A stretch of DNA of 49,544 nucleotides from Candidatus Dormiibacterota bacterium (GCA_035635555.1 DASQAT010000017.1:1-49544), one strand, 5' to 3'; counted from the first letter of the stretch, positions 7,788 through 21,007 are shown. A program made the numbers and translations. The notes: generated by a model from the letters alone, not told the origin.

Positions 7788-8483
7788 ATGCTGCCCGACG
7801 ACGCGCCCAAGACCATCGTCCGCGACTATTTCGAGACCATCGTCACCTGCGTCATCTTCGTCATCTTCGCGCGCACGTTCGCGTTCCAGCAATCGAAGAT
7901 CCCGACCGGATCGATGATCCCGACGCTCCTCGTCGGCGACTACATCATGGTCAACAAGTTCGCCTTCGCGCCGCTGTCGTCCGTTCCGGCGCTGGCGTGG
8001 GTCGAGCACTTGCTTCTTCCGGTGCGCGACCTGAAGCGGAAGGACATCGTCGTGTTCAAGTACCCGGAGGAGCCGGAGAAGGACTACATCAAGCGGGTCA
8101 TCGGGCTGCCCGGCGAGGTGCTGGAGGTGCGCAGTCGGGTGGTCTACATCGACGGCAAGCCCCTCGAAGAGCCGTACGTGATCCATCGCAACCCTCCGGG
8201 CCTGAACAGCGACCAGGACAACTATCCGCCCACCCGCATCCCGGAGAACTCCCTGTTCTGCATGGGAGACAACCGGGACAACAGCAAGGACAGCCGCTCC
8301 TGGGGATTCGTGCCGCGCGACTACGTCAAGGGCCGGGCCTTCATGATCTGGTGGTCGTACGACGAGGATTCGTACGCCTGGCAGAAGACCGCCCTGGCCG
8401 ACAAGGCGTCGGGCATCTGGGACAAGATCACGCACCTCTTCACCAAGTCGCGCTGGGAGCGCAGCTTCAAGATCATCAAGTGA
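7788..8483 (+). CDS. lepB: Signal peptidase I
   Basis: Cleaves signal peptides from exported proteins at the outer face of the inner membrane. The 231-residue protein has one N-terminal membrane helix (about 17-33). It carries box B with the catalytic serine (KIPTGSMIPTLLVGDY, Ser42), box D with the catalytic lysine (DYIKRVIGLPGE, Lys102) and box E (GDNRDNSKDSR). It has the short form of the enzyme, with no second N-terminal span as in E. coli. Own promoter and a good ribosome site support the start. Its end overlaps the convergent transposase-like gene by 8 bases. Confidence 0.97.
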   Translation: MLPDDAPKTIVRDYFETIVTCVIFVIFARTFAFQQSKIPTGSMIPTLLVGDYIMVNKFAFAPLSSVPALAWVEHLLLPVRDLKRKDIVVFKYPEEPEKDYIKRVIGLPGEVLEVRSRVVYIDGKPLEEPYVIHRNPPGLNSDQDNYPPTRIPENSLFCMGDNRDNSKDSRSWGFVPRDYVKGRAFMIWWSYDEDSYAWQKTALADKASGIWDKITHLFTKSRWERSFKIIK

Positions 8484-8988
8484 TCCTGCCGGCCGGGGCC
8501 GGCGGGCGGGCCGACTCGGCCGGGAGCACATCGACCGCGAGCGGCGTGCGTCCGTGGCCGGCCCAGGCCCGGTAGCTCGACCAGCGCCAGTCTCCCGGAT
8601 CCCGCGCCAGGCCCGCCATGACCGGGTTGTAGTGCAGGAAATCGGCCCTCCGTCGCACCTCGTCCGCGCTGGCCAGGGGCAGCGTCTGGTCGGCGTCCTG
8701 CCACACCAGGCCCCGCCTTCCGGATCGCGCGTTGACCTCCCGGGCGAACCGCGATTTGAGACGCTGCACGGTCAGGCGGACGGCCCGAATGTCTTCTCCG
8801 GGCGACCCCAGGATCAGCCGGACGCGATCCGGCAGGACCACGTAGGCGTGCAGCCGGAAGCCGAGCTTGTGCCTCAGGCCGCCGAGGACGTGCAGGAACA
8901 GCGCCCTCCGCGAGGAATCGGCGAACAGCGGCTCGATGCCGTAGGTCCACAGGGTGACGAGGTAGGTCTGCGACGGTCGCGGCTTCAT
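8476..8988 (-). CDS. REP-associated tyrosine transposase-like protein, HUH motif lost
   Basis: A 170-residue member of the Y1/REP-associated transposase (RAYT) family, recognised by LHAYVVLPDRVRLILG, by LKSRFAREVN, and by the C-terminal FLHYNPVMAGLARDPGDWRWSSY block. Such proteins cut single-stranded DNA at REP hairpins. The HUH metal-binding motif (normally PNHVHLLL) reads PDRVRLIL, so both histidines are arginine and the nuclease is probably inactive or altered. ATG 8988 is chosen over 9012 because GAAGAGGG lies about 8 bases upstream. Single copy; no flanking REP array is obvious, only a 5-bp hairpin at 9012-9025. A degenerate or domesticated gene is likely. Confidence 0.8.
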   Translation of the reverse strand: MKPRPSQTYLVTLWTYGIEPLFADSSRRALFLHVLGGLRHKLGFRLHAYVVLPDRVRLILGSPGEDIRAVRLTVQRLKSRFAREVNARSGRRGLVWQDADQTLPLASADEVRRRADFLHYNPVMAGLARDPGDWRWSSYRAWAGHGRTPLAVDVLPAESARPPAPAGRIT

Positions 8989-9207
8989 GATCGGCCCTCT
9001 TCGACCCTCCATCCCGACTGCGGGAAGGCCCGCACCGGCGCGACTAGCAATCCCGGTGCTCGCCGGCGGATCGAATCACAGCGCGGCCTTCGCTCCGGTC
9101 GATGACCGCGGGGCGTCCGGCTGCGGACAGGCAGGTGCGAACGCATAGCCGGATTCGAACGTGTCGAGGTGGACGGGGACCGGACCGGGAGCGGCCCGGG
9201 AGACGCG

Positions 9208-10809
9208 TCAGTCGGCTTCGGGAACCGTGATGAAGGGGAGATCGGGTGCCGGGGCTCCGGGCGCGATGATCGAGTGCCGTCCCCGACCGGATTCCCGCTC
9301 CGGGAAGTCCTGACGGAAATGCGCGCCGCGGCTCTCGCGGCGCCCAAGCGCGGACTCGGCGATGAGGCGGCCGACGAACAGCAGATTGCGGGCCTCGACT
9401 CCGGGACGTGACACGGAACGGCGGGCCAGCCCCCGTTCCAGGCGCAGGACGGCGTCGATCGTCCGGCGCAGGCCCGACCCGTCCCTCACGATCCCGGCTC
9501 CCTCCCACATGACCCGCTTCAGGGACTCGATCGCCTCACGCGCCGCCTCCTCGCCGATCGCCAGAGCCGTCCCCGGGTCGCCGACGAGCGGTCCCTCCGG
9601 AGGCGGCGGCAGGTCGTCCCCCAGCATGGCGCGGCCGGCCCGCGCTCCGAAGACCAGCCCCTCGAGAAGCGAGTTGCTCGCCAGGCGGTTGGCGCCGTGC
9701 ACGCCGGTGCAGGCGACCTCTCCCGCCGCGTACAGCCCGGGGACCGAGGTCCGTCCCCAGAGATCGGTCTTCACGCCCCCCATGATGTAGTGCGCGCACG
9801 GCGTCACCGGGATCCGATCGCGCCCGATATCCAGCCCGTACGCGGCGCATGTGGCCGCGATCGTGGGGAAGCGGCCCCGCACGAACTCGGGATCGAGGCC
9901 GCGCATGCTCAGGTAGACGCAAGGGTGGCCGGTGCGGCGCATCTCGGCGACGATGCCGCGCGCCACGATGTCGCGCGGCGCCAGCTCGCCGCGTGGATCG
10001 GAGCGCGACATGAAGCGCTCACCGGCTGCGTTCTCGAGCCGCCCCCCTTCACCGCGCATCGCCTCCGACAGCAGGAAGCGCGGCGCCCCCTCCATGGAGA
10101 GGGCCGTCGGATGGAACTGCACGAACTCCATGTCCATCATCTCCGCGCCGGCCCGGTACGCCATCGCCATGCCGTCCCCCGTGGCCTGCGGGGGGTTCGT
10201 CGTCTCCTGGTACGCCTGCCCCACTCCCCCCGTCGCCAGGAGGACGGAGCGGGCCTTCAGGATCTCCGGCCGCCGTCTCGATTCGTCCAGGGCGGACACC
10301 CCGGCGCAGCGCCCCCCGGCGAGGATGAGATCCACGGAGAAGATCCGCGGCAGGAGGACGATGCGGCTGTCTTCGGAGGATTTCGCGACCAGGGCGCGGG
10401 CGATCTCCCTGCCGGTCGAGTCGCCCTGGGCGCGCAGAATCCGTCTCTTGCTGTGGGCGGCTTCGCGCGCCAGCGCGATGCGCGTCCCCTCGCGATCGAA
10501 GCGCGCCCCCCACTCGATGAGCTCGAGGGCGCGCGCCGGCCCCTCCTCGACCAGCACGCGGACGGCCCCCTCGTGGCACAGACCGTCGCCCGCCTGGATC
10601 GTGTCCTGATAGTGCAGCGAAATCTCGTCGTCGTCCGACAGCACCGCGGCAAGGCCGCCCTGCGCCTTGTCCGTGGCCGAGTCGGTCGGACCGTCCTTGG
10701 TCAGGATCGCGACGCGTCCGCCCTCCCGGGCGATCTCGATGGCGGCGCGCAGGCCGGCGATTCCGCTCCCGGCGACGATCACGTCGAAGGGGGCGCGTGT
10801 GTCGCTCAT
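9208..10809 (-). CDS. nadB: L-aspartate oxidase
   Basis: FAD-dependent oxidation of L-aspartate to iminoaspartate, the first step of bacterial de novo NAD synthesis, in the cytoplasm. The 533-residue protein has the Rossmann FAD motif (VIVAGSGIAGLRAAIE), the family stretch TDSATDKAQGGLAAV, active-site and FAD-contacting segments (ARALVAKS, ATGGVGQAYQETTNPP, MEFVQFHPTAL, GGVKTDLWGRTSVPGLYAAG, GANRLASNSLLEGLVFG) and the C-terminal helical domain. Length fits the family. nadA and nadC are not in the window. It is divergent from the PATAN-SPOR gene. The 183 bases between its stop and the transposase-like gene hold no gene I can support. Confidence 0.97.
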   Translation of the reverse strand: MSDTRAPFDVIVAGSGIAGLRAAIEIAREGGRVAILTKDGPTDSATDKAQGGLAAVLSDDDEISLHYQDTIQAGDGLCHEGAVRVLVEEGPARALELIEWGARFDREGTRIALAREAAHSKRRILRAQGDSTGREIARALVAKSSEDSRIVLLPRIFSVDLILAGGRCAGVSALDESRRRPEILKARSVLLATGGVGQAYQETTNPPQATGDGMAMAYRAGAEMMDMEFVQFHPTALSMEGAPRFLLSEAMRGEGGRLENAAGERFMSRSDPRGELAPRDIVARGIVAEMRRTGHPCVYLSMRGLDPEFVRGRFPTIAATCAAYGLDIGRDRIPVTPCAHYIMGGVKTDLWGRTSVPGLYAAGEVACTGVHGANRLASNSLLEGLVFGARAGRAMLGDDLPPPPEGPLVGDPGTALAIGEEAAREAIESLKRVMWEGAGIVRDGSGLRRTIDAVLRLERGLARRSVSRPGVEARNLLFVGRLIAESALGRRESRGAHFRQDFPERESGRGRHSIIAPGAPAPDLPFITVPEAD

Positions 10810-10841: not shown

Positions 10842-10870
10842 TTGACAGGCTTCCGGGCGGAACTGATAAT
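10842..10870 (+). promoter_or_regulatory. Strong sigma70-like promoter of the PATAN-peptidase block
   Basis: Perfect TTGACA (10842-10847), 17-base spacer, GATAAT (10865-10870) preceded by a T-G-like extension. The predicted start near 10877 means that the upstream in-frame ATGs at 10797-10869 cannot be used from this promoter, which decides the start of the next gene. Confidence 0.75.
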
Positions 10871-10913: not shown

Positions 10914-12971
10914 ATGCACGATCAGCCGCCCCAGGGATCGATCGACGACATTTTCCTGCCGAGACTCGTCGCCGGCCTGCATCTCCATGAGTTCGAGGGA
11001 TCGCTGCGCCTGACCCTTGCCGATTCCGTCAAGGTCCTCTACTTCAAGAAGGGTGAAATCGCCTCGGCCGCGAGCAACGCCGATTCCGATCGGCTGGCCC
11101 ACATCCTGATCCAGGAGGGGCGCCTCACGATCGAGCAGCTCGAGCTGACCCGGACGCGCATGGAGCCCGGAGCGTCCCTCGGGAAGACCCTGATCGAGAT
11201 GGGCTTCCTGACCCCCACCGAGCTTCTGCAGGGCGCCCGCCGCCAGGTCCAGATCATCGTCGCCTCGTGTTTCACGGCGACCAGCGGATCTTACGAAATG
11301 GTCCCCGGACCGCTGCCGCCGGAGGTCACCTCTCTGGGCCTCGGCACCCGGCGGCTTCTGTTCGATTGTCTCATGCGGTCGGGCGACCGCGCCACGATCG
11401 TCCGCGAGATCGGCTCGATGGAGGCGGTGTACCGGCCGACGGACCGGCTCGAGTTCGTGCTGTCTTCGCTCAAGCTCGACTCCGAGATCGACCGGTTCGC
11501 CCGGCTCCTGAACGGCGCTGCGAGCCTGCACGACCTCAGCAGCCGCACGTCGCACGACGACTTCACGGTGGGCAGGGTCGTCCTCGCCCTCGAGCTCCTC
11601 GGCGGGGCGGAGAAGGTGCCGCCGACCGGGGAGGCGGCTCCGGTCGCCGCGGGCGGCCGCGCCATTCCGATTGTCGTGGCGACCCCGGATGCGGACCCCG
11701 CGCCGGCAGCCGAGGAAGGCGCCGATGACGACACGATCGAGATCGAGACGGAGGCGCTCGAGCCGGCCCCGCTCGTAGAAGTCGTCACCGACGGCGACCG
11801 GCCCTCCCCGATCCCAGTCGCGGCACCGGTCCCGGTTGCGGCACCGGTCCCGGTCGCGGCACCGGTCCCGGTCGCGACACTGGAGGAGAGTCCCTCGGTC
11901 CCGTCCGTCCCGGTCGCGGCACATGAGGAGAGTCCCGCGCGGCCGATCGACCGGCCCGCCTTCGAGATCACGCCGGAGGAGCCGCCCGCCGTCGCGGAGC
12001 CTCCCCCCATCCCACCGGATGAGCTGCCGGCCTTCACCCAGCCACCGGAGGCGTTCCCGTCCGAGCCGGCGCCGATGCCGGCAGCCGTCGGCGAGCCGCG
12101 CTGGGAGATCGATCCCGACACCGGAGAGCGCGTGCACACCGGGCCGATCGTGTTGACATTCGACGGCCGGATCGCGCCCAGCTCCGGCGAATCGAAGAAC
12201 GTCATGCGGATCCTCCTCGGCGCCAGCGCGGTCACGCTCGTCGTCGGGGGGGCGCTCGGCTACGTCATCCTCCGCAACGGTGATGGCGAGCCGGCCGCCG
12301 CCTCGCGGTCCGTCCCTTCCCGACCGGCTGCGACGCTGCCGGTCGAGGCGGAGCCGGTCCAGAACGCCCGGGCCGCTGCGCCAGAGCCCCGGCCCTCCGC
12401 CGTCCCCGCAGTCGTGCCTGCGCCGGCCGAGGCCAGGATGCAGGAACACGCGCGTGAGGCTCCGGCACCCAGCCCTCTCGCGAAATCGGAAGACGCGCGA
12501 CCGGCCCCGCCGGTGGCCCGCGCCGCTCCCCCGGCGGTCGCGCAGACAGCGCCCGTGCCTGCGCCGACGACTGCGCCTGCCCTGCGGGGCGGGTCGACCC
12601 GCCGGACCGCGCTCACGTCCGACCCCGGCATCGCCTCGGCCCTGCAGCAGCTCGACCAGGGGGACGCGGCTGGCGCCGCCCGGCAGTTCGAGTCCTTCGT
12701 TCTTTCCGGAAATCCCGATCGGTTCACGCTCCAGGTGATGATCGCCTGCCAGGAGGAGACCGTGAAGGGGGCGAGGACACGTGCCGGCGCGGACGACTCC
12801 CTGTTCATCCTTCCCTATTCGCTGAAGGGACGATCCTGTTACCGGGTCTGCTGGGGGGTTTATGCCGACGTCGATTCGGCGCGGGCGGCAGCCTCCGGCG
12901 TGCCGGCCGCGCTGACCGGCTCCACCGTTCCGCTCGTCGTGCCCCTGTCCCGTCTCCGGACCCCCGGATGA
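10914..12971 (+). CDS. Membrane-spanning PATAN (DUF4388) - SPOR protein
   Basis: A 685-residue protein with a layout unusual to me. Residues 1-215 form a PATAN/DUF4388 domain (VLYFKKGEIASAASNADSD, LGKTLIEMGFLTP). A long Pro/Ala/Val linker follows, and one membrane helix sits at about 430-455 (ILLGASAVTLVVGGALGYVI). A second Ala/Pro linker leads to a C-terminal SPOR-like domain (about 627-680: LFILPYSLKGRSCYRVCWGVY). PATAN domains occur in bacterial signalling proteins, and SPOR domains bind denuded glycan strands of peptidoglycan. The likely topology is PATAN inside and SPOR in the periplasm. The start at 10914 follows from the promoter; a weak ribosome site leaves some doubt. The stop overlaps the next gene (ATGA). 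Confidence 0.85.
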   Translation: MHDQPPQGSIDDIFLPRLVAGLHLHEFEGSLRLTLADSVKVLYFKKGEIASAASNADSDRLAHILIQEGRLTIEQLELTRTRMEPGASLGKTLIEMGFLTPTELLQGARRQVQIIVASCFTATSGSYEMVPGPLPPEVTSLGLGTRRLLFDCLMRSGDRATIVREIGSMEAVYRPTDRLEFVLSSLKLDSEIDRFARLLNGAASLHDLSSRTSHDDFTVGRVVLALELLGGAEKVPPTGEAAPVAAGGRAIPIVVATPDADPAPAAEEGADDDTIEIETEALEPAPLVEVVTDGDRPSPIPVAAPVPVAAPVPVAAPVPVATLEESPSVPSVPVAAHEESPARPIDRPAFEITPEEPPAVAEPPPIPPDELPAFTQPPEAFPSEPAPMPAAVGEPRWEIDPDTGERVHTGPIVLTFDGRIAPSSGESKNVMRILLGASAVTLVVGGALGYVILRNGDGEPAAASRSVPSRPAATLPVEAEPVQNARAAAPEPRPSAVPAVVPAPAEARMQEHAREAPAPSPLAKSEDARPAPPVARAAPPAVAQTAPVPAPTTAPALRGGSTRRTALTSDPGIASALQQLDQGDAAGAARQFESFVLSGNPDRFTLQVMIACQEETVKGARTRAGADDSLFILPYSLKGRSCYRVCWGVYADVDSARAAASGVPAALTGSTVPLVVPLSRLRTPG
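11813..11878 (+). repeat. 18-bp tandem repeat inside the PATAN-SPOR gene
   Basis: About 3.7 near-identical copies of an 18-base unit (GCGGCACCGGTCCCGGTC) encode repeated VAAPVP in the cytoplasmic linker. The unit is a multiple of three, so copy-number change would alter linker length without breaking the frame. Confidence 0.85.
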
Positions 12972-14380
12972 ACGCCCGGCCGAGAGTCCGGCACCGGCAG
13001 ATCCTTGCTTCCCTGTCCCTCGCCCTCTGTCTCGCATCGTCCGGATCGCCGGCCCGTGCCGACGTGATCCATCTCAAGAACGGAGCGACACTCGCCGCCG
13101 ACGCGTGGGAGGTGAGCGGCGATCTCCTGATCATCAGCCAGGGCGCGTCGCGGATCAACGTTCCGCGGTCGCAGGTGGACAGGATCGATCCGGCGCCGCA
13201 GGCGTCGCCGACCCCGGCCGCCTCCCCCCGCGCCCCCGCTCCGGCGCAGAGCGCCGCGCCCCTGCAGGCGACCGTGTCCGACGAGACGATCCAGATCGGC
13301 ATCGACGACCTGAAGCGCCGGATCGAAGACTTCCCCATGGCCCGGGCCCAGAACACCCGGAACCTCGTCAGGCTTCTCGACGAGCTCGGGGCGCGGGCGC
13401 TCAAGTCGCGCGACTACGATGCCTCGCTGGCCCGGTTCCGGGAAGCCCTCGGTTACGACGCGCACGACGCGCGGGCGCAGCTGGGCCTGGCCGCGACCTA
13501 CCTGCGAACCGATCAGGACATATTCGCCCGATCGACTCTCGAGCGCGCGCTCCTCGACCACCCCGACGACGCGGACCTGCACGCCCTCCTCGGCGACGTG
13601 TACAACGGGCAGGAGCGCACGCAGGAAGCCCTGGCCGAATGGAGGAAGGCCTACGAACTGAAGCCGAACGACGCGCTCAAGAGCAAGATCGACAAGCTCT
13701 CCCGCGAGCGCGCGATCGACGGCTCCTACCGCCAGTCGGACGCGGCCCACTTCACCCTGAAGTACGACGGCGAGCGCGGCGGCCCGGACCTCGGCGCGCA
13801 GATCCTCGACTACCTCGAGGGTCAGTTCCGCGCGCTCGAGACGCGCTTCGATCACTATCCCCTGCAGCCGATCATCGTCATCCTCTACCCGCAGCGGCAG
13901 TTCTACGAAGCGACCCAGGCGGACTCGAACGTGGCCGGTCTTTACGACGGCAAGATCCGCGTGCCGATCGGCGGGTTGCAGCAGCTCAACGCCGAGGCCC
14001 GGCATGTCCTCGTCCACGAGCTGGCGCATGCCTTCATCGCCGGCAAGAGCCACGGCACAGCACCCCGCTGGCTGCACGAAGGCCTGGCCCAGGTGATCGA
14101 GGGGAAGTCCACCGGCACCGCGACCGGAGTCTCGCTGGCGAAGGAGTACCAGGCGCTCCCGGACAAGGAGAGCTGGGGCCAGGCGTTCACCTACCCGAGC
14201 GCCCTCTCGTTCGCCGAATACCTCGACGACCGCCTCGGCTTTCCCGCCCTTCTGGACGTCCTGGAGACGATGGCGAAGGGGGACACGGCGGAGGCGTCGT
14301 TCGAGAAGGTCACGCGTTACTCGCTCAAGGAATTGCGCCAGGCCTGGGGCGAGGCCCTGGTCGCCAAGTACTTGCAATAA
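12968..14380 (+). CDS. Exported TPR protein with peptidase MA-like (HExxH) domain
   Basis: A 470-residue protein with a signal peptide (cleavage near ARA-DV, about residue 32), a small beta domain (DVIHLKNGATLAADAWEVSG) and a Pro/Ala linker. Then come tetratricopeptide repeats (about 135-235) and a C-terminal gluzincin-type metallopeptidase domain. The zinc site is H350-E-L-A-H354 with Glu371 (WLHEGLAQ) as third ligand, typical of the peptidase MA-like family. It should act in the periplasm or on the cell surface on an unknown protein. ATG overlaps the stop of the PATAN-SPOR gene, so the two are coupled and may work together. Confidence 0.88.
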   Translation: MNARPRVRHRQILASLSLALCLASSGSPARADVIHLKNGATLAADAWEVSGDLLIISQGASRINVPRSQVDRIDPAPQASPTPAASPRAPAPAQSAAPLQATVSDETIQIGIDDLKRRIEDFPMARAQNTRNLVRLLDELGARALKSRDYDASLARFREALGYDAHDARAQLGLAATYLRTDQDIFARSTLERALLDHPDDADLHALLGDVYNGQERTQEALAEWRKAYELKPNDALKSKIDKLSRERAIDGSYRQSDAAHFTLKYDGERGGPDLGAQILDYLEGQFRALETRFDHYPLQPIIVILYPQRQFYEATQADSNVAGLYDGKIRVPIGGLQQLNAEARHVLVHELAHAFIAGKSHGTAPRWLHEGLAQVIEGKSTGTATGVSLAKEYQALPDKESWGQAFTYPSALSFAEYLDDRLGFPALLDVLETMAKGDTAEASFEKVTRYSLKELRQAWGEALVAKYLQ

Positions 14381-14468
14381 TCGATTCCGCGCCACAAGTT
14401 ATGGTCGGACCGGTCCGCACCCCGGCCGGAGTCCGTTCGGGGCGCGGTCCGGGGGGAGCCCCGACCGG

Positions 14469-16172
14469 ATGAACGGCGATCTCGCGCAGCGGGCCCTGAT
14501 CGATGTCCTGGCCGATGTGCAAAAGCGCCAGGCCTCCGGCGTCCTGAGGATCCAGAAGGACGCCACCACACGCCAGATCTTCATCGACGCCGGCATCATG
14601 ATCCGCTTCGCGGTCAGCACCCTGCCGACCGAGAGCATCACGGCCCTGTTCCGCAACAGGGGTGCCTTGACGGACGAGCAGCTGCGCCAGGCGACCGCGG
14701 CGAAGCTGCAGGACGAGCTCCTCGGCACGACGATCGCGCGCCTCGGGCTGATCACCAAGGAGAACCTCACCGAGCTGACCCGCGAGCACATCCATCGCGT
14801 CGTGCTGGGCGCCCTCGCGATGCGCGAGGGGACCTACGAGTTCCAGGCCGGCGCGCTTCCATTCCGCGAGCAGCTCGACGGCGGGCTGAGCACGCCGGAA
14901 ATCCTGCTCGAATGGGTCCGCGCCCTCCCGGACGCCGACGCGATCAGACGACGCTTCGGCTCCCTCGAGGCCCGAGTCATGATGTCGCCCCGCCCGCCCG
15001 AGGGATATCAGGCGATCAAGCTCAACCCGGCGGAAGGATTCATCATGTCGCGCGTCGACGGACGGACCAGCGCGGCGGAGATCTGCATGGTGAGCCCGAT
15101 GGGCGAGGACACGACGGTGCGGGCCCTCTTCGGCCTCGCCCTCGCGGGGATCCTGACCATGCCCGAAGGGGCCGTGGAGATCCCCCTGCATCCGGCGGCG
15201 CCGGCGCCGCGCCCCGGGACGGCCCCTCGGACCACGGCACCGGCATCCTCCCCCGCGGTTGGCGCCCCGCGCGCGCCGACGAACGGCGGTGCCGCCGCGG
15301 CACCGCAGACCGGGACGAAGCAGGGACCCTCCGCCCCCCGTCCCGGGGCGCGGCCGGCGGGCCTCGCGAAGCCGGTCGGGGCGCGCGCGGGCGCATCTCA
15401 TCCGGCCAGGCGCCCCGCGCCGTCGATGGCGCCTCGACGCGTCACGTCGGTCATCGAGCGGGTGCGGCCGGCGACCCCGGCCGAGCTCGAGAGCGAGATG
15501 CTGCAGCGCTTCGAGCAGATGCGCGATCAGGACCTGTACCAGATCCTCGGCGTCGCCGCCGCGTCTCCTTCTGACGATGTGCGGCGCGCCTATTACGGCC
15601 TCGCGAAGAAGTTCCATCCCGACAAGTTCACGCGCGAGGACATGAAGGCCAAGGCCGAGAAGGTGTTCGCCCACATCACCGAGGCGTACTCCACTCTGTC
15701 GAATGCGGAGACGCGGACGAAGTACGACGAAGACCAGGCGATCCGCAAGGGCTCCCACGCGCAGGAGAAGAAGGCGGACGGCGGCGACATGGCGCACATG
15801 AACTTCAAGCACGGCAGGGAGATGTTCGACAAGGGGAAGCTCGGCGAGGCGATCTCCTTCCTGCAGAACGCGTGCGATCAGGATCCCTCCAAGGCCGAAC
15901 ACTTCCATTACCTGGCGCAGGCGCAGAGCCGGAACCCGCGCTGGAAGAAGGATGCCGAGGAGAATTTCCTGAAGGCCATCGAACGCGATCCGACCAACGC
16001 CGACATCTACGCGCAGCTGGGATCCCTCTACGCCAAGGGCGGGCTGCATTCCAAGGCGCGCGACATGTTCAAGAAGGCGCTGCAGTGGGACCCGGCCAGC
16101 CAGGAGGCGCTGGACGGGCTGGCGTCGGAGGACGCGGGGCGGAAGGGAATTCTAGGCATGTTTAAGAAGTAG
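14469..16172 (+). CDS. PATAN (DUF4388) - J domain - TPR protein
   Basis: A 567-residue cytoplasmic protein. Residues 1-235 are a PATAN/DUF4388 region (GVLRIQKDATTRQIFIDAG, LLGTTIARLGLITKENLTEL). A Pro/Ala-rich linker follows (about 240-330). A J domain at about 355-420 keeps the HPD tripeptide (AKKFHPDKF) needed to stimulate a Hsp70 ATPase. TPR repeats fill about 440-560. J-TPR proteins recruit DnaK to particular clients; the PATAN part may choose the site. No membrane helix is visible. The 88 bases before it carry a 12-bp palindrome (14406-14417) and a 7-bp stem (14437-14443 with 14458-14464) around the G-rich ribosome site, which could modulate translation. Confidence 0.88.
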   Translation: MNGDLAQRALIDVLADVQKRQASGVLRIQKDATTRQIFIDAGIMIRFAVSTLPTESITALFRNRGALTDEQLRQATAAKLQDELLGTTIARLGLITKENLTELTREHIHRVVLGALAMREGTYEFQAGALPFREQLDGGLSTPEILLEWVRALPDADAIRRRFGSLEARVMMSPRPPEGYQAIKLNPAEGFIMSRVDGRTSAAEICMVSPMGEDTTVRALFGLALAGILTMPEGAVEIPLHPAAPAPRPGTAPRTTAPASSPAVGAPRAPTNGGAAAAPQTGTKQGPSAPRPGARPAGLAKPVGARAGASHPARRPAPSMAPRRVTSVIERVRPATPAELESEMLQRFEQMRDQDLYQILGVAAASPSDDVRRAYYGLAKKFHPDKFTREDMKAKAEKVFAHITEAYSTLSNAETRTKYDEDQAIRKGSHAQEKKADGGDMAHMNFKHGREMFDKGKLGEAISFLQNACDQDPSKAEHFHYLAQAQSRNPRWKKDAEENFLKAIERDPTNADIYAQLGSLYAKGGLHSKARDMFKKALQWDPASQEALDGLASEDAGRKGILGMFKK

Positions 16173-16464
16173 GGAAAATGCCCTACCACCATGCGGATGC
16201 TCGTCAGCGTTCCTGTTTGATTTGCTTGATTTCACGGGGGTTAGTGCCGCGTGGGAACGATTCTCCGTGATCTCGACCCTCCGAGCCTTCCCAGCCGTGC
16301 TTTTCCCTCGATACGTCCAGGAGTCATCCGCACTGTTGTCGGTCATTTTCCATAGGGATCCCCGCCGCGTTGACTTGGCCCCTCCCGTCCATAGATTTGC
16401 AGCGTGCAGTTGACCGGGACGATGACGATTCCGTGATCGTGCCCGGCGGTGCCGGACGGGGGAC
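16173..16464. other. Gene-free gap before the kinase gene
   Basis: The first bases form a 6-bp hairpin with the stop codon (GTAGGG 16169-16174, CCCTAC 16181-16186) without a T-run. The middle (16195-16360) is less GC-rich than its surroundings and contains no frame with coding character; a 64-codon minus-strand frame has no support. A promoter candidate for the kinase lies at 16370-16397. Confidence 0.5.
16370..16397 (+). promoter_or_regulatory. Probable promoter of the kinase gene
   Basis: TTGACT (16370-16375) and TAGATT (16392-16397) with a 16-base spacer, about 70 bases before the kinase start. The -10 box is weaker than in the other promoters of this window. Confidence 0.5.
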
Positions 16465-18018
16465 GTGGTACAGGAGATGAGCGACGACGCGTTGAACCCC
16501 GGCGCGGAGAGTGACCGACCGGAGCGCTTCGGCCCTTACAGGGTCGAGGATCGCATCGGCGCCGGAGGAATGGGCGTCGTCTATCTGGCCCTGGACGAGG
16601 CGCTGCAGCGGCAGGTGGCGCTCAAGACCCTCCTGCCTGCCCTGGCCGCGGATCCCGAGTTCGTCGCGCGCTTCAAGCGCGAAGCGCAGTCCGCGGCGGC
16701 CCTGAATCATCCGAACATCACCCAGATCTATACCATCGGGCAGGAGGGGCACGTGCCCTTCTTCGCCATGGAGTTCATCCGCGGTCGATCTCTCGAGGCG
16801 ATCCTGAGGGAGAAGGGGGCGATCCCGGCGGCGGAGGCGGCCGGCTACGTTCTGCAGGCGGCGACGGGACTGCGTCACGCCGCGCAGAAAAAGCTGATCC
16901 ATCGCGACATCAAGCCGAGCAATCTGATGCTGACCGAGGACGGTGTCCTGAAGATCACCGATTTCGGCCTGGCGAAGGCGGCGCGCTCGGAGACCCAGCT
17001 GACGGCGACCGGGGAGATCCTGGGATCGCCGGGCTACATCTCGCCCGAGCAGGCCTCGGGTGCCGCGATCGACGCGCGATCGGACATCTACTCGCTGGGC
17101 GCCACCTTCTACCACCTGGTGACCGGACGACTGCCGTTCGAGGCGCCGACGCCGCTGGCGATGATCGTGAAGCACATGAGCGAGCCTCTGCGCTCGCCGC
17201 GCGCGGTCAACCCCGCCGTTCCCTACCCGATCGCCTCCGCGATCCAGAAGATGATGGCCAAGCGTCCCGGCGAGCGGTTCCAGGACTACGACGCTGTCAT
17301 CCGCGAGCTGGAGCGGGCGCAATCCACGATTTCGGCCGACACCGCCGGACCGCGCGCCGCCGGTGTCGTTCCGGCGGCGCAGTCGTGGAGCGCCACGACC
17401 GGTGCCGAGCTGCGCGGACGCGCGGGGCGCGGCCCGCTGCCCGGCGCCGACGAGCGACCCGCCCGGGCGGGCGGGTTCTCCTGGATGTTGATGGTGCTCG
17501 CCGCCCTTCTCGGAGTTCTCATCGTGGCGGGCGCGGTCAGGCACCGTCGCCTGGCCTTCCGCGACGCCCCCGGCGGACAGAGCGCCGTCGCGAGCGCCGT
17601 CGGAGAGCCGGTCCCCGGGCAGGCGCCCGTGGAGACCCAGATGAGCTACACGAACCGGCCCGCCGGTGATGTCTTCCAGAAGGCCCTGCGCCCCGGGACG
17701 TCGGTGGAGGATAAGCTGCGCGATCGTTACCGTCAGAAGAGCCGGGCGAACCTGTCGTTCGTCTCCAACGACCACTCCGTCCTTCCGGACGGCCGGATCA
17801 AGGTGTTCGGGCGGGTCCAGAACAGCGGCGGAAGCTCGGCCTCGCAGGCCCGGGTGAGGGTGCGCATCCTCCTGGACGATGGCGGTATGGCGGCCGAGGG
17901 GGAGACGCCGCTCGATCCTTCGGTCGTCCCTCCGCAGGGCACCGCGACTTTCGAGATTCCGCTCGACTACCGGGGCCCGGTCGGCACGATCAAGGCCGAG
18001 CTGATCTGGGTCGAATAG
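16465..18018 (+). CDS. Membrane-anchored Hanks-type Ser/Thr protein kinase with FxLYD-like outer domain
   Basis: A PknB-like eukaryotic-type kinase. In the 517-residue protein the kinase domain spans about 23-285, with the glycine loop (GAGGMGVV), VALK Lys54, HRDIKPSN (Asp148), DFG (Asp166) and the activation segment GSPGYISPEQ all intact, so it should be active. A linker leads to one membrane helix (about 338-358) and a C-terminal outer domain (about 425-517, FGRVQNSGGSSASQARVRV) resembling FxLYD-type beta sandwiches. The signal would be sensed outside and phosphorylation occur inside. Start is GTG 16465 or ATG 16477; the second has AGGAG too close. The PATAN proteins upstream are possible substrates (inference). 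Confidence 0.93.
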   Translation: MVQEMSDDALNPGAESDRPERFGPYRVEDRIGAGGMGVVYLALDEALQRQVALKTLLPALAADPEFVARFKREAQSAAALNHPNITQIYTIGQEGHVPFFAMEFIRGRSLEAILREKGAIPAAEAAGYVLQAATGLRHAAQKKLIHRDIKPSNLMLTEDGVLKITDFGLAKAARSETQLTATGEILGSPGYISPEQASGAAIDARSDIYSLGATFYHLVTGRLPFEAPTPLAMIVKHMSEPLRSPRAVNPAVPYPIASAIQKMMAKRPGERFQDYDAVIRELERAQSTISADTAGPRAAGVVPAAQSWSATTGAELRGRAGRGPLPGADERPARAGGFSWMLMVLAALLGVLIVAGAVRHRRLAFRDAPGGQSAVASAVGEPVPGQAPVETQMSYTNRPAGDVFQKALRPGTSVEDKLRDRYRQKSRANLSFVSNDHSVLPDGRIKVFGRVQNSGGSSASQARVRVRILLDDGGMAAEGETPLDPSVVPPQGTATFEIPLDYRGPVGTIKAELIWVE

Positions 18019-18045: not shown

Positions 18046-18618
18046 TCAGCCCCCTTCGACGGTGCGGGTGGCGCGATAGATGTAGTGGAAGCCGGAGGCC
18101 AGCGTGACGGCGAGCGTCAGCCAGACGAGCCCTTCGACCAGGACCGGCTGCTCCCGTCCCAGGTAGTTCAACAGCATCACCGTGCCGATCGTCACGACCT
18201 GGACGACCGTCGTCAGCTTGCCGAGAAATGTCGGCCGGAAGCTGGTGGTGCCCGAGGTCAGGTGGACGAGGAGCGCGATGATGACGATGAACACGTCCCG
18301 GCTGATCGCCACGATGGTCAGGGACAGCGGGATGTGGTTGGGCATGTGGAATTCCGGGACCGACTTCGGATGATCCGGAAGGGCCAGCACGATGAAGCAG
18401 GCGGTCATCAGGAGTTTGTCGGCCATCGGGTCCAGGAAGGCGCCGATGTTCGAGCTCTGGCGGTAGCGTCTCGCGATCAATCCGTCCAGGGCGTCGGTGA
18501 CCCCCGCGAGGATGAACACCAGCAGAGCCCAGCCGTGCAGGTTGCCGAGCAGGAGGGTGATCAGCAGCGGGATCATCACCATCCGGAAGATGGTCAGCTG
18601 GTTGGCCAGTGTCAGCAT
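18046..18618 (-). CDS. pgsA: CDP-alcohol phosphatidyltransferase (phosphatidylglycerophosphate synthase)
   Basis: Transfers a phosphatidyl group from CDP-diacylglycerol to glycerol 3-phosphate in the inner membrane, the committed step to phosphatidylglycerol. The 190-residue protein is polytopic and carries the family motif D-G-x2-A-R-x8-G-x3-D-x3-D (DALDGLIARRY, then NIGAFLDPMADK). Substrate choice within the family is inferred from PgsA-like length and context. ATG 18618 is chosen because residues LTLANQLTIFRM match the usual N-terminus; the longer in-frame extension runs inside miaA. The start overlaps the end of miaA. Confidence 0.9.
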   Translation of the reverse strand: MLTLANQLTIFRMVMIPLLITLLLGNLHGWALLVFILAGVTDALDGLIARRYRQSSNIGAFLDPMADKLLMTACFIVLALPDHPKSVPEFHMPNHIPLSLTIVAISRDVFIVIIALLVHLTSGTTSFRPTFLGKLTTVVQVVTIGTVMLLNYLGREQPVLVEGLVWLTLAVTLASGFHYIYRATRTVEGG

Positions 18619-19589
18619 GTCAGCATCACCGCCGCATGGGCCAGGGGCCGCTCGAATCGCTCCGGGTCGGCCGGGTCGATCTCGAACCAGGCGACCCCCT
18701 CCTCCCGCCGGAACCACGTCCACTGGCGCTTCGCATAACGCCGCGTGTTCCGCTTGGTCAGTGCGACCGCCTCGGCGAGGCTCAGCTCGCCCCGCAGGTG
18801 GCGCATCGTCTCGCGGTACCCGAGCGCCTTGAAGGCGTTCGCGGCCTCCGCGCGGCCCGCTTCGAGCAGCCCCCTCACCTCGTCGACCAGCCCCTCCGCG
18901 AAGAAGCGATCGACGCGGGCGTCGATGAGACGGTACAGCGACTCGCGCGCCATGCTCAGGCCCACCTTCACCGTCGCGAAACGATCCGGTCCGAAAGGCG
19001 ATTCGCCGATCAGGTCCGAGAGGCCCCGGCGCGCCACGAAGTACACCTCGAGGGCGCGGACCAGCCTCTGTCGATCGGCCGGGGGCAGCCGCGCGGCGCC
19101 GGCCGGATCGACCCGCGCCAGGAGCCTGTGGAGCCCGGCCGGGCCGCGCCGCTCCGCCAGCGCCCGGAGCCTCGCCCGCAGGGCCTCGTCACGGCGGGGC
19201 GCCTCGGCGATCCCTTTCAGGAGACCTCGCAGGTACAGCCCGGTCCCCCCGACGACGACGGGCAGCCGCCCGCGGCGCCGGATCGAGTCGATCGCCGCCT
19301 CGGCATACCTCACGAAATCGCCGAGCGAGAAGTCCTCTCCCGGCTCCGCCAGATCGATCCCATGGTGCGGCGCCCGCCGGAGCTCGCGCGGTCCGGGCTT
19401 GGCCGTGCCACGGTCGAGGCCGCGGTAGACCTGCATCGAGTCGGCGCCGACGATCTCCCCGCCGAAGCGCTCGCAGGCGCGCAGGGCGAACTCGCTCTTG
19501 CCGACCGCGGTCGGACCGACCACCACCAGAAGCGGCGCGCCCTCGCCGCGGGTCTGTTCCGCCGTGGCGGTGCCGCCCGTCCCCGGCAA
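18612..19589 (-). CDS. miaA: tRNA dimethylallyltransferase
   Basis: Adds the dimethylallyl group to A37 of tRNAs reading UNN codons. The protein (325 residues) has the P-loop (VVVGPTAVGKSEFAL), the DSMQVYRGLDRGTAKP substrate segment, the GGTGLYLRGLLKG motif and the C-terminal TKRNTRRYAKRQWTWFRRE block. All core motifs are intact and length is normal. The upstream end is uncertain: the frame opens at TTG 19589, three bases after the previous stop, and no strong ribosome site is seen. It is translationally linked to pgsA. Confidence 0.96.
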   Translation of the reverse strand: MPGTGGTATAEQTRGEGAPLLVVVGPTAVGKSEFALRACERFGGEIVGADSMQVYRGLDRGTAKPGPRELRRAPHHGIDLAEPGEDFSLGDFVRYAEAAIDSIRRRGRLPVVVGGTGLYLRGLLKGIAEAPRRDEALRARLRALAERRGPAGLHRLLARVDPAGAARLPPADRQRLVRALEVYFVARRGLSDLIGESPFGPDRFATVKVGLSMARESLYRLIDARVDRFFAEGLVDEVRGLLEAGRAEAANAFKALGYRETMRHLRGELSLAEAVALTKRNTRRYAKRQWTWFRREEGVAWFEIDPADPERFERPLAHAAVMLTC

Positions 19590-19592
19590 GGC

Positions 19593-19898
19593 TCAGGCCC
19601 CCCGGTTGCGCTGCTGATCGCGGTACTCGTTGATGGTCTCCTGCAGATGGTCCTCGCAGTAGACGCGACCCCGCGCCACCCGCCGGCCGCAGCGCGGGCA
19701 GGAGCGTCCCACGAGAGCGGCCATCCCGCGGCCGGCCATCGACAGCACGAGACCGAGCGCCACGCACACGCCCCCGGCGATGGCGATGTTGCGGAACAGC
19801 CCCTTGTCCGGCTCCCCCGCCAGGATCTGGGCCGCGGCGAGATAGACCACCGACGCCACGATCAGGAGCCCGCCCAGACGGACCAGGGCCCTCGCCAT
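19593..19898 (-). CDS. Small membrane protein with zinc-ribbon tail
   Basis: About 101 residues: two hydrophobic segments (about 5-25 and 38-57) and a C-terminal metal-binding knuckle, CPRCGRRVARGRVYCEDH, followed by a polar helix. Four potential Zn ligands (C-x2-C, C-x2-H) are present. I do not recognise a named family. ATG 19898 overlaps the stop of the PATAN gene upstream by one base (a GTG one codon earlier is also possible) and miaA follows after three bases, so it is co-expressed with both. A link between membrane and a cytoplasmic partner of the PATAN protein is conceivable but unproven. Confidence 0.7.
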   Translation of the reverse strand: MARALVRLGGLLIVASVVYLAAAQILAGEPDKGLFRNIAIAGGVCVALGLVLSMAGRGMAALVGRSCPRCGRRVARGRVYCEDHLQETINEYRDQQRNRGA

Positions 19899-21007
19899 CA
19901 CGCACCGGCCTCCGGCTCGTGCAGGCGGACGTCCCGGAAGGCGCGCAGCACCCGTCCTTCATGGACCGTGCCCAGGGTCTTTCTCAGGACCAGGAGCTCC
20001 GCGTACAGGAGCTCGTTCAGTCCCTGGATGAGGGCGTCCCGGCGGCGGCGCCCGGGGAGGGATCCGAGGTTCTCGCGCAGCAGGCCGGGGTCCACCGTCC
20101 CGTCCCCGCCCAGGGAGGTGCTCCGAAAAAGCGCCTGATGCGTGACCGACAGGTCCCGCAGCGACCGCGCCAGCAGATGCTCCGAGATCGGCCCGACCTC
20201 CTTCATCAGGTACTGGTAGACCAGGCCGAACATGCCGTTGTAGTTCTTCAGGATTCGTTCGATGCCGTCGGCTCCCCCCAACGGCTGGTCCTCGTCCGAG
20301 ACCTCGGCGCGCATCTTCAGGCGACCGACGACGGACAGCAGGAACAGGGTGCGCAGCGTCTCCTCCGGACCGAATTCGGACAGAGCGCCGACCTGCCCGA
20401 TGGTCCGCGCGCCGTCCACCAGGCGCAGGACGTACTGTTCGTGCGGCTCGAGTCCGATGTCCGGCCGCTGTCCGTCGTCCTGGATGGCCTCGAACACCCA
20501 CTCATCGAACGGCATCCGTTTGCGGAACAGCTCCGGGTTGCGCACCGAACGGATCCCTTCGAGAAGCGTCTCCGTGATCGGCAGGTCGACCTCGACCTCC
20601 GCGTCCGGCGGCGCCTCCCCCTCGTGGAACACGAACTCCCCCTCCTCCCACTCGAACAGGGACGTGGCGATCTGCCGGACCTGGCGCCGGCGCTCCTCCA
20701 TGAGTCCCCGCGGATTCAGGCCACCCGCTCCGAGAAGGGCGCGGCCCAGTTTCTCGCCCGCTGCGGCGCGCCGCATCGCGTCGTCGCACTGCTCGCGCGT
20801 GATCAGGCCACGCTGCACGAGACGCTCCGACAGCCTGTCGGTCGCGCGCGTGGAGGTCGCGTGGACGATCGTCTCACTGCGCAGGTACAGCCCGATCGAC
20901 GCGCCGTCCGAGGTGAAGGAGACCAATCCTCTGCGGTTGAGGACGCGCAGGAACTCCAGGATGTCCGCGCAACTGAGGGCCTTCAGCCTGCCGCGAAACT
21001 CAGCCAC
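19898..21007 (-). CDS. PATAN (DUF4388) domain protein
   Basis: A 369-residue cytoplasmic protein, the third DUF4388 protein of the window. The N-terminal part (about 1-155) has the family pattern: FRGRLKALSCADILEFLRVL, GLYLRSETIVHATSTRATD, LGRALLGAGGLNP and WEEGEFVFHEGE. The middle (about 185-235) contains a winged-helix-like stretch (YVLRLVDGARTIGQVGALSE). The rest is helical. It lacks the membrane, SPOR, J or TPR parts of its two relatives. It leads an operon with the zinc-ribbon membrane protein, miaA and pgsA. PATAN proteins are usually tied to signalling or polarity; the role here is unknown. Confidence 0.85.
   Translation of the reverse strand: MAEFRGRLKALSCADILEFLRVLNRRGLVSFTSDGASIGLYLRSETIVHATSTRATDRLSERLVQRGLITREQCDDAMRRAAAGEKLGRALLGAGGLNPRGLMEERRRQVRQIATSLFEWEEGEFVFHEGEAPPDAEVEVDLPITETLLEGIRSVRNPELFRKRMPFDEWVFEAIQDDGQRPDIGLEPHEQYVLRLVDGARTIGQVGALSEFGPEETLRTLFLLSVVGRLKMRAEVSDEDQPLGGADGIERILKNYNGMFGLVYQYLMKEVGPISEHLLARSLRDLSVTHQALFRSTSLGGDGTVDPGLLRENLGSLPGRRRRDALIQGLNELLYAELLVLRKTLGTVHEGRVLRAFRDVRLHEPEAGA

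Follow-up and report, generated by a model that had tools for sequence, protein, structure and literature searches.

A SPOR protein, a TPR-gluzincin peptidase, and a PATAN-J protein share a conserved gene neighborhood in a class of Acidobacteriota

Do four neighboring genes for a SPOR-like protein, a peptidase, a J-domain protein, and a Ser/Thr kinase belong to a single system? The initial annotation of this locus proposed that they form an undescribed, envelope-linked set of four proteins, with a start-stop overlap between the first two genes. Our analysis supports this for three of the genes, on the basis of their domains and their class-wide order, and argues against it for the kinase. The window is the whole 49,544-nucleotide stretch that was analyzed. 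All four genes (g1 to g4) are present at 10914-18018 on the + strand with the domains originally ascribed to them (Table 1), and the g1 stop codon and g2 start codon do overlap, as ATGA (12968-12971).

The region contains two promoter-like sites, compared to 0.2 expected from shuffled sequence, and both are intergenic and correctly oriented; terminator-like sites are no more numerous than in shuffled sequence. Within the g1 linker, there is a short, in-frame tandem repeat (11820-11880, PVAAPVPVAAPVPVA). Further out, an ORF on the - strand (8476-9012) looks by eye like a RAYT-type (REP-associated) transposase and has no Pfam match, while a small membrane protein gene overlaps the PATAN gene beside miaA (19593-21007, -), with synteny in families f1 and f2. 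The source genome (~4.28 Mb) has 11 DUF4388 matches in ~10 genes. “Candidatus Polarisedimenticola svalbardensis” and Acidobacteria bacterium Mor1 belong to the same class as the source genome, and within the named collection, the close relatives are Acidobacteriota “gp22” MAGs.

Table 1. Features of the locus and its flanks, with positions counted from the first nucleotide of the window.
Feature	Position	Strand	Remark
nadB, divergent flanking gene	9208..10809	-	synteny control
Sigma70-like promoter-like site 5' of g1	10842..10870	+	TTGACA-17-GATAAT, 11/12, consensus match only
g1: PATAN (DUF4388), Pro-rich linker, TM, SPOR	10914..12971	+	predicted bitopic, N-in/C-out
SPOR-type domain region of g1, conserved cysteines	12594..12968	+	among PDB entries, profile clearly matches DamX SPOR alone
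g2: signal peptide, small beta domain, TPR, gluzincin	12968..14380	+	HELAH...WLHEG
g3: PATAN, disordered linker, J domain (HPD), TPR	14469..16172	+	predicted cytoplasmic
Terminator-like hairpin 3' of g3	16195..16212	+	weak: 1 found vs 2.2 expected
Promoter-like site 5' of g4	16370..16397	+	TTGACT-16-TAGATT, 9/12, consensus match only
g4: Hanks-type Ser/Thr kinase, TM, DUF3426-like outer beta domain	16465..18018	+	ATG at 16477 is a possible alternative start
pgsA-like flanking gene	18046..18627	-	
miaA, flanking gene	18612..19589	-	
g8: additional PATAN protein near miaA	19898..21007	-	syntenic in families f1 and f2

The first gene, g1, encodes a PATAN/DUF4388 domain (55.6 bits; Pfam cut-off, 25), a single predicted transmembrane (TM) helix near amino acid 430, and a SPOR-like domain at the C terminus. 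On its own, the window copy falls below the Pfam cut-off for SPOR (13.2 bits versus 21), but 9 of 20 g1 family members match Pfam SPOR (PF05036) at E < 1 (best, 4e-5), and the family profile clearly matches a single PDB entry, 2lfv, the SPOR structure of Escherichia coli DamX (E 1.8e-8, 86 positions). Because the family members match SPOR and the family profile matches DamX, the original SPOR call is correct, and by sequence profile the g1 C terminus is a SPOR domain. In alignment A3 of this domain across the g1 family, C42, C72, A86, and P94 are invariant. Two of the SPOR cysteines are invariant and a third is nearly so, in the motifs ..AC.. and CYRxCWG, and they possibly form a disulfide. 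Nearly all g1 homologs have one predicted TM helix ahead of SPOR. g1 resembles bitopic SPOR proteins of the DamX/FtsN type in its predicted topology: N terminus inside, single TM helix, and C-terminal periplasmic SPOR domain. It differs from them in its cytoplasmic PATAN domain (in this order), its SPOR cysteines, and its putative operon with a peptidase and a J protein. In most families of the class, g1 is instead a short TM-SPOR protein without PATAN; judged by this gene content, the PATAN part is therefore not essential to the gene set.

The peptidase, g2, has a predicted signal peptide, TPRs, and a gluzincin domain. The motif HEL[ATV]H...W-L-x-E-G occurs in every homolog scanned, and 25 diverse homologs all retain H350, E351, H354, and E371; by these residues, g2 is a gluzincin, with an intact HExxH and a conserved downstream Glu ligand. 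Peptidase MA and BepA-like TPR metalloproteases likewise combine a HExxH gluzincin-type motif, TPRs, and a signal peptide, and g2 matches Peptidase_MA_2 (PF13485; 28.1 bits, Pfam gathering cut-off 32.4) and the TPR part of BepA weakly, below cut-off. However, the TPRs of g2 precede the peptidase domain, and there is an additional N-terminal beta domain. Structure models of g2 and g3 are confident outside linkers (mean pLDDT, 90.6 and 81.0, respectively). Foldseek searches with the two models returned matches to the TPR parts and none for the PATAN, beta, and peptidase folds, an absence that carries no weight here.

The third protein, g3, matches DUF4388 at 53.1 bits (cut-off, 25) and the DnaJ profile at 60.2 bits. 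Among its homologs, 18 of 18 match DnaJ and 17 of 18 match DUF4388, and all those scanned have the HPD motif, around which the g3 model shows J-domain helices. By profile and model, then, g3 is a J-domain protein, with HPD between helices II and III. TM helices were predicted in none of the g3 homologs, except for one marginal match. Like Nostoc DnaK1/DnaJ3, g3 suggests a dedicated J protein with a site-specific role at the envelope, but in g3 the J domain is part of a fusion with PATAN and TPR, the gene sits beside those for a SPOR protein and a peptidase, and dnaK is not among the four genes. The PATAN/DUF4388 domain is common to g1, g3, and the cyanobacterial proteins PixE, PixG, LsiR, and PatA. 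In contrast to the cyanobacterial PATAN response regulators, the domain is fused here to SPOR or J-TPR, and a profile search detected no CheY receiver domain in either protein. The helical insertion of the PATAN domain matched an NCBIfam MshE-related c-di-GMP motif below cut-off in all 10 PATAN domains tested (best match, E 1.7e-9, 37.3 versus 38 bits). The MshE-like stretches lie at 11091-11234 (g1 amino acids 60-107), at g3 amino acids 63-104, and in the PATAN part of 19898-21007 (-). This is a hint that the insertions of PATAN domains resemble MshEN, with c-di-GMP as a possible ligand.

How far does the gene order extend? We searched 50 related genomes with g1, g2, g4, and the PATAN and J part of g3. 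Contigs around the matches were mapped by tblastn and family HMMs and tallied by hand, leaving out G031. A contig was considered testable for SPOR if it had at least 500 bp upstream of the peptidase, and for PATAN-J if it had enough room downstream. The peptidase was on an examined contig in 35 genomes of the class. Of 33 testable contigs, 30 have a SPOR gene 5' of the peptidase in the same orientation, including one (G006) with ~1.7 kb between the two genes; the exceptions without an upstream SPOR are G019, G022, and G039. Downstream, PATAN-J-TPR was found in every testable case (31/31). Thus, the conserved-neighborhood check that had been suggested for Acidobacteriota came out in favor of g1-g2-g3, though not of the kinase, and the opposite outcome, genes scattered in relatives with only the peptidase-PATAN overlap conserved, was not seen. 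The g1-g2-g3 order recurs in ~10 families of the class, with identity of roughly 22-40% in distant families, and 4-bp g1/g2 overlaps are frequent across homologous loci, based on heuristic start calls. By gene order, this recurrence is far more than expected by chance. Linkage to nadB is kept in only 15 of 27 cases with room for it; therefore, the linkage of the trio outlasts that of its surroundings. A wider neighborhood of mutS2, pgsA, a pilT-like ATPase gene, and miaA is common to many families (L065, L066, L067, L070, L071, and L073).

Outside the class, the parts also occur separately. We scanned named organisms for the peptidase and examined the best 80 of 344 matches, which come from Acidobacteriota, one Planctomycetota, and one unassigned record. 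In Terriglobia, the peptidase lacks SPOR and PATAN-J neighbors, and the next gene usually encodes a SpoIIE-type phosphatase (homolog at 30 of 43 loci, three checked by Pfam). At L104:7392-12259 and similar Terriglobia loci, a gene for a SpoIIE-type Ser/Thr phosphatase comes after the peptidase homolog, and a divergent M1-type peptidase gene flanks it. PATAN-J-TPR fusions apart from the trio occur in other Acidobacteriota (G043, G044, and G048), and G042, G044, and G049, all outside the class, encode PATAN-TM-SPOR proteins. One of the PATAN-J-TPR genes that stand alone, in G044, is oriented divergently from a gene for an MglA-like polarity GTPase (L167:4730-8194). Because peptidase, PATAN-J-TPR, and PATAN-TM-SPOR proteins are found apart, the gene set looks to have been assembled from parts that also exist alone.

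What might the three proteins do together? Our preferred reading, held tentatively and at somewhat less than even confidence, is that g1-g2-g3 is a conserved operon encoding a chaperone-protease module that is anchored to the wall at the septum or pole. We infer this, i.e., the glycan binding, substrate, DnaK recruitment, localization, and joint action of the three proteins, from predicted topology and from the literature on SPOR domains, PATAN, and DnaK1/DnaJ3. Denuded glycan at division sites is the ligand of SPOR domains (PMC6895207), a Sinorhizobium SPOR protein helps fix the growth pole and polarity (PMC7822825), and PatA interacts with the divisome (PMC7380572). In the module, g1 would cross the inner membrane and expose its SPOR domain to the periplasm, where the domain would bind denuded (peptide-free) glycan, a material enriched at division sites and new poles. 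The exported g2, a putative zinc gluzincin with a TPR platform, would act there by cleaving or maturing an envelope protein. The cytoplasmic g3 would act at the same site from the inside, its J domain activating DnaK on a client chosen by PATAN and TPR. As g2 and g3 are predicted to be on opposite sides of the membrane, contact between them would have to run via g1, and where g1 has PATAN, the cytoplasmic parts of g1 and g3 may share a partner. The net result would be that some envelope machine is assembled, disassembled, or quality-controlled locally. A more specific proposal, which we consider doubtful, is a wall-guided Hsp70 system, in which the SPOR protein reads the state of the wall and directs PATAN-J with DnaK inside, and the gluzincin outside, to the same site.

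The same domains could instead serve type IV pilus or polarity control, with the PATAN domains of g1 and g3 binding PilB, the J domain recruiting DnaK, and SPOR giving polar placement. This alternative has the best precedents: PATAN regulators of Synechocystis are described as binding PilB (Han 2022, as cited in PMC10519157), in Nostoc, PilB and Hfq are bound by DnaK1, which acts together with DnaJ3 on type IV pilus motors at the poles (PMC9239167), and in Myxococcus, SgmX co-occurs with two PATAN proteins (PMC11580455). A pilT gene is near the trio in several families, but the wider conserved segment accounts for its position. Likewise, the MglA-like neighbor of PATAN-J is suggestive and MglA-like GTPases are near universal in the compared genomes, but by match coordinates the adjacency is apparently confined to G044. 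The distribution of PilB fits poorly in both directions. The trio is present in two 100% complete genomes (G032 and G020) that lack a TIGR02538 PilB match over cut-off, while in two others with PilB (G028 and G025), the peptidase was not found. Since G032 and G020 retain T2SS-type ATPases and below-cut-off PilB-like proteins, the mismatch weakens the pilus explanation and does no more than that. A phylogenetic profile of the trio against PilB gave no clear correlation, with small n. In all, we regard control of type IV pili or polarity as somewhat unlikely.

It is also important to consider that a recurring neighborhood is not proof of joint function. The three genes could be unrelated members of a stable chromosomal segment, co-transcribed for historical reasons and acting separately. 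In many families, nadB, mutS2, pgsA, and miaA are also kept around the trio, though nadB, mutS2, and pgsA are unrelated to it, and both the peptidase in Terriglobia and PATAN-J elsewhere occur alone. However, the trio remains contiguous where nadB linkage has been lost (families f6, f8, and f11) and where mutS2 has been replaced, and start-stop overlaps are frequent. In G012, moreover, nadB, SPOR, and PATAN-J are directly adjacent with the peptidase absent; by its gene order, this genome has lost the peptidase and retained SPOR and PATAN-J, which remain neighbors. We consider a purely historical association unlikely.

The kinase is a different case. g4 has a Ser/Thr kinase domain (162 bits, Pfam), one predicted TM helix, and a C-terminal outer beta domain. 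It thus resembles PknB-type kinases in its Hanks kinase domain, single TM, and extracytoplasmic domain, and differs in having a DUF3426-like domain in place of PASTA and in being an order-specific neighbor. It scores 336 bits against the 450 of the PASTA kinase model NF033483 (NCBIfam), with the kinase domain alone matching, and a profile search found no PASTA repeats in g4. The kinase is 3' of the trio in all nine testable genomes of the same order (families f1 and f2), compared to none of the 20 testable genomes outside it, most of which have mutS2 in its place. We therefore rejected a four-gene unit that includes the kinase. The “four-gene block” of the initial annotation is also interrupted by terminator-like and promoter-like sites between g3 and g4. 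By its distribution, the kinase is a later, lineage-specific neighbor outside the core set, and it may regulate the module only in this order. Four-part signaling, in which the TM kinase phosphorylates PATAN linkers on wall or peptidase signals, is less likely still than the readings above, given that full-length kinase relatives are on other contigs in G014, G017, and G021 and that the kinase is separated from the trio as just described, even though its constant place within the order, its predicted TM helix and outer domain, and the frequent SpoIIE-type phosphatase after the Terriglobia peptidase, a possible second phospho link, would fit.

The domains of the three core proteins are known, while their combination is apparently undescribed: we found no description of a SPOR, peptidase, and PATAN-J gene combination in the open-access literature searched. 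If the wall-guided Hsp70 system proves correct, it would be an undescribed, transmembrane-coordinated chaperone-protease pair. The PATAN family is experimentally thin, and there are few known cases of Hsp70 co-chaperones targeted to envelope sites. A class-wide operon that links PATAN and J to SPOR and a peptidase offers a directly testable way into both subjects, in Acidobacteriota, a group whose cell biology has been little studied.
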